A DNA stretch of 64,000 nucleotides from Luteolibacter rhizosphaerae (GTDB lineage: Bacteria > Verrucomicrobiota > Verrucomicrobiia > Verrucomicrobiales > Akkermansiaceae): positions 248,001-312,000 of the forward strand of contig NZ_JAPDDR010000008.1 in NCBI RefSeq assembly GCF_025950095.1. Reading direction: 5' to 3'. The notes beneath the pieces are model-generated. The model was not told where the DNA came from and did not search any database. It worked only from the letters and a program-made list of their open reading frames with translations. The translations under genes were made by a program, and so were the position numbers. Shown here piece by piece: positions 13,990-16,243 of the stretch (position 1 is the stretch's first letter; each line of letters begins with the position of its first letter).

Positions 13990-14066
13990 CGGGGCGTAGC
14001 TCAGCCTGGTAGAGCGCCTGCTTTGGGAGCAGGATGTCGTCAGTTCGAATCTGGCCGCCCCGACCA
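13990..14066 (+). tRNA. tRNA-Pro (anticodon TGG)
   Basis: A full cloverleaf can be drawn: a perfect 7-bp acceptor stem (13990-13996 with 14056-14062), D-arm GCTC/GAGC, anticodon stem CCTGC/GCAGG with loop TTTGGGA giving anticodon TGG, T-arm with TTCGAAT, discriminator A and an encoded CCA at 14064-14066. It reads Pro codons. Its 3' end is repeated at 14818-14828, suggesting use as an integration target. Confidence 0.97.
14056..14066 (+). repeat. Direct repeat, left copy (tRNA-Pro 3' end; candidate att)
   Basis: The last 11 bases of the tRNA gene, CGCCCCGACCA, recur at 14818-14828. In both places T-rich sequence follows, and a CAGTTC hexamer lies a few bases upstream (in the T-arm of the tRNA, near 14804 in the copy). 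A repeat of a tRNA 3' end flanking a small insert is the usual footprint of site-specific integration. Confidence 0.5.
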
Positions 14067-14173
14067 CTTTTCTTTCACGGAGAGGTCCAAGCCCTTGGTG
14101 AGATCGCCGGGGTCTTTGTTATCCTGAGGCTGAATCCTCTCGCATCGAGACTCCAACCACTGCTCTCCGACCC

Positions 14174-14728
14174 ATGAGAACAATAGAATTGGTGAGATTT
14201 CTCTTACCGACTCTGATGCTCGTTTTTCCGCAAGCTAGTTCTTTGGATCAATTGCCGGATCAGAGGACCGAGCTACAGAAGAGGGCTGCCATAGAAAGGG
14301 AGGCTCAGAAGGCCGAGGTTCAAGAGATTCAGAGAATCTCGGATGAGGCAGAGATCTGGTACCTCGAGCCGACAACAAAGGATTGGTCCAAGTTCCGTTG
14401 GAAGAAGATCCGTGGGAATGCAAAAAGTGGAATCGCGCGATTGATCAAAGGTGCGATAGTGTCCGACAGAGCGGGGATGTCGTTTACGCTGGATCTGCCT
14501 GCCGAGACCAAGCGAGAGCGAGCCGAAGGATTCGCGATCCTGAAGGGGCCTGACGGAGGCTTCAGCGGATTCGTGCGAAGGGCCAACTTCGAGGAGAAGT
14601 CTTCATTGAAGTTGATTACGGTGAACTCCTTCATCAGCGAGAAGGAAGTATTCTCATGGTCACCCAAGCCATGGTTTGTGGGGATCGTAACGGAAGTCTC
14701 CATCACGTCGCTTCTCAGGGCCGATTAA
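14174..14728 (+). CDS. Exported coiled-coil hypothetical protein, 184 aa
   Basis: Residues 1-23 form a signal peptide (VRFLLPTLMLVFPQASS). A charged Glu/Lys/Arg helix likely to form a coiled coil follows (about 27-58), then a beta-rich C-terminal region. No family is recognised. Codon use is visibly less GC-rich than the neighbours. It is the only gene between tRNA-Pro and the repeat of the tRNA 3' end, so it may be the cargo of a small islet. There is no integrase next to it. Confidence 0.6.
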   Translation: MRTIELVRFLLPTLMLVFPQASSLDQLPDQRTELQKRAAIEREAQKAEVQEIQRISDEAEIWYLEPTTKDWSKFRWKKIRGNAKSGIARLIKGAIVSDRAGMSFTLDLPAETKRERAEGFAILKGPDGGFSGFVRRANFEEKSSLKLITVNSFISEKEVFSWSPKPWFVGIVTEVSITSLLRAD

Positions 14729-14817
14729 AGCGAAGAGGACGAGCAAGTTCGCGACTGAAGCCGGCCCGAGCTTCCTTTGCTGCCGAAACTACTATTGGTT
14801 TCAGCAGCAGTTCCGGG

Positions 14818-14828
14818 CGCCCCGACCA
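14818..14828 (+). repeat. Direct repeat, right copy of tRNA-Pro 3' end
   Basis: This is an exact 11-base copy of the tRNA-Pro acceptor end including CCA, followed by a T-run. It lies just past the 184-aa islet gene and 18 bases before the stop of the convergent sulfatase gene. It is short, so chance is possible, but the shared upstream CAGTTC and downstream T-run strengthen it. Confidence 0.45.
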
Positions 14829-14845
14829 TTTTTCCCTCAAGCCCT

Positions 14846-16243
14846 TTATGGCTTGCCAGGATACACCGGCTTCAATTCCTCCGCGGCACGGAAAGCTTCC
14901 GGCGTGTCGAGGATGACTCCGGGATCGAGTTGTTCACTCAGATTGCGGTCCAGCGCGGCTGCCAGTCGGGCCTTGGTTTCCGCATGCTTCGGATCGGCAG
15001 CCAGGTTCGTCAGCTCGAAGCGGTCCTCCGCGGTGTGATAGAGTTCTTCGGCGGGACGGTGGAGGAAGCGCTCGACCAAGCGCAAGGTGCGCGGGTTCTC
15101 CGTGGCGGTGAACATCCACGAGCCCCAGTAGGGATTGTGCTCGGTGCGCCCCATCAGGTGTTTCTCGATGTAGGTGCGTTCCGGGGCGAGATTCCGGATG
15201 TAGCGCCACTCGCCGTCGCCGATCGAGCGGATGGGATAGGGCGGGCCTTCGGGATAGTTGTTGTGCATCCCGTAGACGAAGTCTCGGTGCTTCTCGCTCT
15301 GCCCACGCAGCACGGCAGCGAAGCTGCTACCATCGAAGATCGCGGGGTCGGGCTTGCCCCCCGCGAGCTCGATGAAGGTAGGCAACATGTCCGCGTATTG
15401 CACCAGCGCCTTGGTCCGGCGTCCTGAGGGGACGACCTGTGGCCAGCGGGCTACGATCGAGGTGTGCAGGCCGGCATCCCAGTTCGTCCACTTGTTACCG
15501 GGGAATTGGGCGCCTTGCTCGCTGGAGAAGATCACCAGCGTGTCATCGGCCCGCTTGGTCTCGTCTAACAGGCGGAGCAGTTCGCCGACCTGCCCGTCCA
15601 TGTAAGTGATCTCCGCGAGGTAGCGGGAGAAGCTCTGCCGCGTCATCGGCGTGTCTGCCAGATTCGCGGGCAGCTTGATCGACTTCGGCGGGTAGGCGGA
15701 GGCATCGCCCATCACCCAGGGAGCATGCGGCTCGGTCAGGGCCACGACGAGGCAGAAGGGCTGCTTCTCATCGCGGGTGATGAATTGCCGCGTGCCGCCG
15801 AGGTCGTGCGGGTTGGTGGGATCACGCACGCAATTCTCATCGAAGCCCGGGACCTTCTCGAAAGGGAAGGAGGCGGCTGGCTTGATGTGGGTCTTGCCTG
15901 CGAGGCCGACACGGTAGCCGAGATCGCCGAGGAAGTGCGGGATGCTGCGCGTGCCGGGGCGGCAGGTGCTCTGGTTCCATGCGCAGCCATTCCGCAGCGG
16001 CAGACGGCCGGTGTAGAATTCGGAGCGGCAGGGCGAGCACATGGCCATGCTCAAATAGCCCCGCTCGAAGACCGTGCCCTGCTTCGCCAGTCCGTCCAGA
16101 TTCGGCGTGCGGGCGTTCTCGCCACCGTGGAAGGACAGGTCGCTGTAGGTGCAATCGTCCGCGAGGATGACGAGGATGTTCGGCTTCTCCGCCGCGACCA
16201 GGGGAGTGGCGAAGAGGAAGGAAAGGAGCAGTAGCGACTTCAT
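14846..16243 (-). CDS. Secreted sulfatase (arylsulfatase family)
   Basis: The 465-residue protein has a signal peptide (1-18), then KPNILVILADD with metal-binding Asp29-Asp30. The sulfatase signature CSPCR at 69-73 followed by TGR holds Cys69, which must be converted to formylglycine by a maturase. Further family motifs are KTHIKP and EPHAPW. It should hydrolyse sulfate esters, probably on polysaccharides, outside the cytoplasm. Its ATG overlaps the stop of the GH43 gene by 4 bases, so the two are translated as an operon and probably act on the same glycan. Confidence 0.92.
   Translation of the reverse strand: MKSLLLLSFLFATPLVAAEKPNILVILADDCTYSDLSFHGGENARTPNLDGLAKQGTVFERGYLSMAMCSPCRSEFYTGRLPLRNGCAWNQSTCRPGTRSIPHFLGDLGYRVGLAGKTHIKPAASFPFEKVPGFDENCVRDPTNPHDLGGTRQFITRDEKQPFCLVVALTEPHAPWVMGDASAYPPKSIKLPANLADTPMTRQSFSRYLAEITYMDGQVGELLRLLDETKRADDTLVIFSSEQGAQFPGNKWTNWDAGLHTSIVARWPQVVPSGRRTKALVQYADMLPTFIELAGGKPDPAIFDGSSFAAVLRGQSEKHRDFVYGMHNNYPEGPPYPIRSIGDGEWRYIRNLAPERTYIEKHLMGRTEHNPYWGSWMFTATENPRTLRLVERFLHRPAEELYHTAEDRFELTNLAADPKHAETKARLAAALDRNLSEQLDPGVILDTPEAFRAAEELKPVYPGKP

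Follow-up and report, generated by a model that had tools for sequence, protein, structure and literature searches.

Structured repeat units of about 130 nt lie behind at least 11 tRNA species in the Luteolibacter/Haloferula group, each opening with the reverse complement of its own tRNA's tail and closing with a copy of that tail. In the window, i.e. the whole 64,000-nt stretch of Luteolibacter rhizosphaerae DNA analyzed here, a degenerate copy of the tail and trailer of tRNA-Pro(TGG) occupies positions 14812-14839 on the + strand. The explanation we favor, with confidence about evenly divided for and against, is that this copy is the surviving 3' end of a decayed unit of the type represented by the RtT repeats of Escherichia coli, and that a lineage-specific gene fills the space behind the tRNA. 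The proposed relic is described as tail-only because no unit interior survives.

The tRNA-Pro(TGG) gene (13990-14066, + strand, ARAGORN) is intact and encodes its CCA. A match to it occurs in all 18 genus genomes including that of L. rhizosphaerae, with G010 and G013 holding a 3'-half copy only. A preliminary description of the locus had noticed that the last 11 bases of the gene recur 0.76 kb downstream and that CAGTTC is present at both sites. Both observations are correct: CGCCCCGACCA is found as an exact 11-mer at 14056-14066 and 14818-14828, but the direct repeat is in fact longer, with 28 nt that begin in the T-loop, include CCA and end in the trailer. The reference copy lies at 14050-14077 (+ strand), the start-to-start spacing is 762 nt and 23 of 28 positions are identical (82%, repeat finder). 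In register with the tRNA, 15 of 17 bases agree for 14050-14066 and 8 of 11 trailer bases for 14067-14077. CAGTTC, which matches the 5' strand of the T-stem, resides at 14808-14813 (+ strand; tRNA counterpart 14041-14046). Its distance to the tail is 5 nt shorter in the copy than in the tRNA, and this shortening sits where intact units carry a module described below. Both trailers also contain CAAGCCCTT (+ strand), 10 nt beyond the repeat in the first (14088-14096) and overlapping the end of the tail copy in the second (14838-14846), where it is reached with a 12-nt gap and where its last base belongs to the stop codon of a sulfatase gene. Immediately 5' of the tail copy, GCTGCCGAAAC/GTTTCAGCAGC form a hairpin without a U-tract (14779-14808); the surrounding region 14765-14840 has a folding z of -3.3 on the + strand. 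The terminator scan did not call this hairpin. An intrinsic terminator as the cause of the copy was rejected, as none was called there; the sole terminator-like site lies at 14093-14112, and such sites are as frequent as in shuffles (1 vs 1.1).

The intact units share a common plan. The tRNA gene is followed by a trailer of usually 35-71 nt, a segment antisense to the T-arm and to the 3' strand of the acceptor, and a hairpin. Next, in sense orientation, are the 5' strand of the T-stem and the T-loop (GGGTTCGAA); a structured module of about 65 nt follows, and then the sense tail from A58 to the 3' end of the gene, often with the trailer repeated after it. The aligned units accordingly read tail reverse complement, GATGAGAACC, hairpin, GGGTTCGAA, module, CGGCGNAGCCG, GGCATGGCC-GNA-GGC and AATCCC...CCA, and the module hairpin has the form GG-GA-GC-TTC-GC-GA-CC. 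On our reading of the sequences, the 5' segment is probably complementary to the T-arm and acceptor strand, and the module appears to interrupt the sense copy in the T-loop. The tail copy is predicted to be able to fold against the antisense segment; the result would be a stem like that of acceptor and T-arm, from which CCA protrudes. Start-to-start spacing was 179-199 nt in the five intact loci measured (an offset of 151-171 nt from the end of the 11-base trailer, plus 28). In the five loci first found, the trailer is repeated after a tail copy that starts in the T-loop, and many intact units carry exact tails.

The distribution of the units was followed with three covariance models. The first, R1, was built from six units and applied with 150 first-look candidates scored per genome. 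It yielded at least 41 matches in at least 14 of the 18 genus genomes, L. rhizosphaerae included. For 31 of the 41, a tRNA is located upstream in the fetched DNA; the other 10 are without one in the 0.1-1.5 kb available. The upstream tRNAs are those for Ser (cga, tga, gga, gct), Pro (tgg, cgg, ggg), Leu(aag), Asp(gtc) and Val(tac), and in 24 of the 31 cases the copy of tail and trailer scores at least 30 of 58, the remaining seven scoring lower. Searches of the phylum contributed 20 further matches, 13 of them with a tRNA (9 of the 13 scoring at least 30 of 46), and added units behind Lys(ttt) in G002 and G030. The tRNA species with units are thus four for Ser, three for Pro and one each for Leu, Asp, Val and Lys, at least 11, and no case for Tyr was seen. 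Model R2 was built from genus units only, without E. coli, while R3 is a combined model that includes E. coli. Across 387 phylum genomes (strict filters, eight candidates scored), R2 found units in at least 11 genomes from five genera, one distant family included. All these counts are lower bounds, because few first-look candidates were scored and the phylum filters were stricter. In G230, from a further family, a 27.7-bit RtT match proved to be a tail-copying unit behind tRNA-Pro(ggg), which R3 did not recover.

For 33 aligned units, 8 of the 41 R1 matches having been left out as truncated or degenerate, a 24-pair structure is formed in 90.4% of cells. Covariation amounts to 86 double-change cells vs 24.1 (sd 4.0) in shuffled alignments, a value reached in none of 500, and vs 14-23 when the structure is slid. 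Note that covariation in P1 is partly forced because both strands follow the tRNA; independent support comes from the module, namely from its pairs 133-149, 76-89 and 69-128. Stem and tail follow the tRNA, with an identity of 0.814 between units of the same tRNA in other genomes vs 0.594, whereas the module follows the genome, with 0.673 between units of other tRNAs in the same genome vs 0.586 (0 of 1000 label shuffles) and follows the tRNA less (0.617, 37 of 1000). In this comparison kinship was handled by the label shuffles alone, and the labels of 8 of the 33 units were taken from the tail rather than from an annotated tRNA. By eye, two units contain the approximately 65-nt module twice in tandem (L283, G005:C217:7124-7298, and L280, near G007:C32:8707). 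The module itself may be a mobile or repeating piece. REP-like palindromic repeats serve as the comparison system here: like them, the module has short hairpins, occurs in tandem (G005:C217, by eye) and varies with the genome; unlike them, it is found as part of a tRNA-tail unit.

A comparison with the E. coli RtT repeats (Rfam RF00391, tyrTV), stable RNA from which is released from the tRNA transcript, reveals extensive likeness. Both lie behind a tRNA and have a repeated trailer, and the E. coli period of 178 nt compares with 179-199 nt in the five loci here. Three E. coli repeats follow tyrV at 178-nt steps with an exact 19-nt tail copy (AATCC...CCA); the fourth Rfam match in E. coli lies between two tRNA genes (L285). 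The E. coli repeats contain an antisense-like reverse-complement segment, GGGGAAGGAT, then GAGAA as in the units here, and then AGGTTCGA. At L285:1211-1990, they also show a sequence that is almost the reverse complement of the tRNA-Tyr tail and could pair with the copy of that tail. The two groups agree in secondary structure and in their conserved blocks (antisense, GATGAGAA, GGTTCGA, tail). R2 detects each of the four E. coli copies over its full length, with 26.9-29.9 bits (E 1.1e-5 to 2.5e-6 in 4 kb); the R3 scores on E. coli are no test, as E. coli is included in that model. In the reverse direction, RF00391 aligns to the L. rhizosphaerae Ser(cga) unit in register over the full model with 21.7 bits (E 1.2), below the 45-bit gathering cut-off. 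Across 96 phylum genomes, RF00391 gave no match above this cut-off and one weak match of 27.7 bits. At E up to 1 or 10, Rfam otherwise returns the tRNA, its antisense strand and weak matches to tRNA, trailer or unit edge (e.g. sX4, E 0.23-0.52), RtT being the sole family that covers the whole unit in register. The differences are that the E. coli module poorly follows the P5 pairing of the units, that its sequence is another one, and that RtT is known from the tyrTV locus whereas the units here reside behind at least 11 tRNA species with no Tyr case. From their sequences, the units seem to function as RtT repeats do, and homology between the two is probable, although the units are not members by the Rfam cut-off. 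That repeats follow tyrT in E. coli has been established for decades, and they are not known to have an accepted function. Titles and opening parts of abstracts found in a literature search mention no such repeats outside E. coli, which is not a claim that none are in print.

A plausible course of events would begin with transcription of the units together with their tRNA. The antisense would then pair with the tRNA's own tail or with the copy, acting as a switch or as a decoy for tRNA-processing enzymes, and processing might release an RNA with a tRNA-like 3' end. Modules would spread among loci, recombination between direct repeats would multiply as well as erode units, and the window copy would be the tail end left by such recombinational erosion. 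A broader proposal, possible but in our judgement rather doubtful, is that RtT-type repeats are a multi-phylum class of structured elements on tRNA genes. In this class, a module would spread among the tRNA loci of a genome, while the 3' end of the host tRNA would be the source from which the two strands of the closing stem are made anew. The resulting tailored mimics of tRNA tails could, within the transcript, capture the genuine 3' end of the tRNA or take its place; the window would hold the remains of a dead unit. Now that this architecture is found in another phylum and behind at least 11 tRNA species, its stem matching the host tRNA, the single E. coli case becomes a comparative data set, in which the constrained part (module helices) is separable from the copied part (tail, antisense) and each tRNA locus is a replicate. 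A retro-copy of mature tRNA was argued against as the source of the tail, since the tRNA-Lys(ttt) gene and its copy are both without CCA; copying of a precursor is still compatible.

Several findings speak for the relic at the window locus. Intact units start their tail copy in the T-loop, as the window copy does, and L. rhizosphaerae itself has intact units behind tRNA-Ser(cga), (gga) and (tga), each with an exact or near-exact copy of tail and trailer. Units also occur at tRNA-Pro(TGG) of relatives according to R2: clearly in G007, where two are arranged in tandem, and in G005, fairly in G008 (28.2 bits, E 0.00064), and as weak matches behind integrated tRNA-Pro copies in G017 (22 bits, E 0.015) and G013 (19 bits, E 0.065). 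A weak match in G003 (19.8 bits, E 0.044) was discounted, as it lies upstream of the tRNA. Decay is probable at other loci: tRNA-Val(tac) of L. rhizosphaerae is followed by a probable tail-less unit (19.8 bits, E 0.013 with R2; 17.9 bits, E 0.017 with R3), only the front of a Pro unit is seen in G010 (13.2 bits, E 0.17), and a second Pro unit of G005 has, by eye, lost its interior. Other findings speak against the relic. The spacing of 762 nt contrasts with 179-199 nt in the five intact loci, the copy is 82% identical over 28 nt and begins at T60 vs A58 in the units, and the downstream flanks are not syntenic. Compared with RtT, only the tail is kept: a scan of the islet with filters off found no unit, the best scores being 4.5 bits with R1 (at the hairpin) and 5.2 bits with R2 (on the tRNA itself). 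When the 1 kb downstream of tRNA-Pro(TGG) was inspected in 14 relatives, G007 and G005 showed intact unit tails and the other 12 scored at most 18; thus no intermediate was seen.

The preliminary description had interpreted the duplication as the footprint of an integrated element. The corresponding alternative, which we hold to be unlikely, is the scar of a tyrosine-recombinase island, with the tRNA as attL, 14812-14839 as decayed attR and the enclosed gene as the last cargo. Comparison of tRNA-Pro(TGG) loci in the genus confirms that this tRNA is an integration site. Five extra copies of its 3' half, 45-50 bp long and starting near the anticodon loop, were found in 4 of 17 relatives (G012, G017 twice, G013 and G010), four being exact and one 96% identical. 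In G012 (Luteolibacter marinus, C148:55891-102991; L046, L047), tRNA-Pro(TGG) and an exact 50-nt 3' copy lie 47 kb apart on one contig, which gives the outline of a large island; the G010 copy retains the flank that follows tRNA-Pro in G005 and G007. A Pfam-recognized integrase is encoded near the G017:C144 copy (L059:8213-9427, - strand), and a tyrosine-recombinase-like 460-aa ORF beside the G013 copy (L060:16110-17492, + strand) is 25% identical to it. By eye, a related reading frame begins beside the G010 copy, and the ORFs beside the G012 copy resemble a group II intron reverse transcriptase. Two tail units (G007:C9:197203-198636 and G010:C62:9820-11398), for which the fetched DNA contains no tRNA, have integrase genes at a distance of about 0.8-0.9 kb, an arrangement that insertion of an island between tRNA and unit could produce.

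The window locus shares with such islands the duplicated tRNA 3' end and variable DNA in between, but its repeat has different boundaries, running from T-loop to trailer. The anticodon-loop part present in the 45-50-bp repeats of the relatives is missing, with 4 of 28 bases in register for 14022-14049. Furthermore, the expected integrase using this site was not found: there is none beside the enclosed gene, which is the sole content of the islet, and the five Pfam integrase matches of the genome lie on other contigs or 260 kb away. What stands of the earlier interpretation is a real 3'-end duplication at an integration-site tRNA; an integrated element is not supported by an adjoining integrase or by matching repeat ends. 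Given the T-loop start and the continuation into the trailer, the tail relic of an RtT-type unit therefore fits better than an island scar, although the tail copy could equally be a relic of an older island. As a warning, a short duplication of a tRNA end is not in itself an integration footprint.

The flanks do not provide an empty site. Upstream lie a CbiX-type gene and an LplA-like reading frame, and CbiX precedes tRNA-Pro in 8 of 17 same-genus relatives in the DNA fetched around the locus. The convergent neighbor downstream, the sulfatase gene (14846-16243, - strand), has a strong match in 12 of 17 relatives, where it is located elsewhere and never adjoins tRNA-Pro; more distant sulfatases (24-29% identity) are encoded downstream of tRNA-Pro in G009 and L110. 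Among 80 named CbiX loci, from relatives including Haloferula sp. BvORR071, Luteolibacter marinus, Haloferula rosea and Akkermansiaceae MAGs, 11 hold tRNA-Pro, and neither the gene of the islet nor a close sulfatase follows there. No empty site is demonstrable in the 17 same-genus relatives or these 11 loci because the downstream neighborhood and its gene order are not conserved in them.

The gene between the repeats (14174-14728, + strand), which encodes an orphan-family protein of 184 aa, has a bearing on the island scar as well. Its low GC content, pointed out earlier, is evident: at 0.517 it is the lowest of the 49 window ORFs of at least 450 bases (mean 0.623, sd 0.026). Together with the failure of a direct search to find the gene in the 17 same-genus relatives, this is what cargo of an island might look like. 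However, the genome contains a paralogue (G000:C9, 185 aa, 23% identical, with W-[FY]-x-E-P-T in common), whose existence supports the ORF as coding. The paralogue resides between a CinA-like gene and another chromosomal, housekeeping-type gene (names assigned by eye), with no tRNA within the 19 kb fetched around it, and is likewise GC-poor (0.498 within a 0.626 stretch). Low GC therefore belongs to the small family and not to this place. A profile search added only a frame-broken homologue elsewhere in G009, so that the family is present in 2 of 195 family genomes; this homologue (L108:1265-1776) is split over two reading frames and is either a pseudogene or a sequencing error. Homologues on islands, as would befit a cargo gene, did not emerge: no relative was detected by tblastn of plasmids and phages or by peptide patterns, which reach close relatives only, in viral and genome contigs. 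Pfam, NCBIfam, PADLOC and PHROG gave no confident match (best DUF7645, E 0.28, and a PHROG, E 0.16), nor did PADLOC for the paralogue (one match, E 0.039). The protein had been described as an exported coiled-coil protein. Export is probable from a signal peptide judged by eye, while the coiled coil corresponds to a helix at residues 28-58 in a low-confidence AlphaFold2 model (four alignment rows, mean pLDDT 42.8) that is too poor for a fold search.

Chance similarity, perhaps aided by T-rich trailers, G+C-rich 3' ends or convergent gene ends, is an improbable explanation. The 11-mer CGCCCCGACCA is not over-represented, with 14 exact copies in the 6.23-Mb genome vs 15 of a reversed control; by itself it is no evidence, and position and length are what count. 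We therefore compared the copy, using our own code, with 500 shuffles at three gap settings and with 148 other window segments. Alignment of the full tRNA was ordinary (reached by 8-34 of 500 shuffles and 6-15 of 148 segments), which together with the missing unit interior would suit chance. The tail half without trailer was reached by 2-10 shuffles and 0-4 segments, the tail half plus CTTTT by 0, 1 and 0 of 500 shuffles and by no segment. Significance thus rests on the tail together with the trailer. When the same question was put to 46 usable tRNAs of the genome, tRNA-Pro included, the scores were 56, 51, 38 and 31, followed by values of at most 21. The window tRNA-Pro ranks fourth with 31, the best of the other 42 reaching 21, and the three loci above it are the tRNA-Ser loci with intact units. 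Also at odds with chance, the match ends upstream in the T-loop and runs on into the trailer.

A second tRNA-Pro gene that arose by tandem duplication and then decayed would account for the copying of both tail and trailer. If gaps are allowed, CAGTTC aligns upstream of the tail, as do AGCAG and CTxCT.TTGG, these two weakly. This origin is in our judgement the least probable of all; the gapped full-gene match is reached by 34 of 500 shuffles, and the tRNA 5' part agrees at 10 of 32 positions in register. The islet as a MITE or dispersed repeat was rejected, since 14067-14845, searched as DNA against the 18 genus genomes, matched besides itself only stretches of less than 40 bases (best E 0.0014). 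In G003 (C25, L014), a sequence of about 70 nt that is unlike the units is tandemly repeated directly after tRNA-Pro(TGG).
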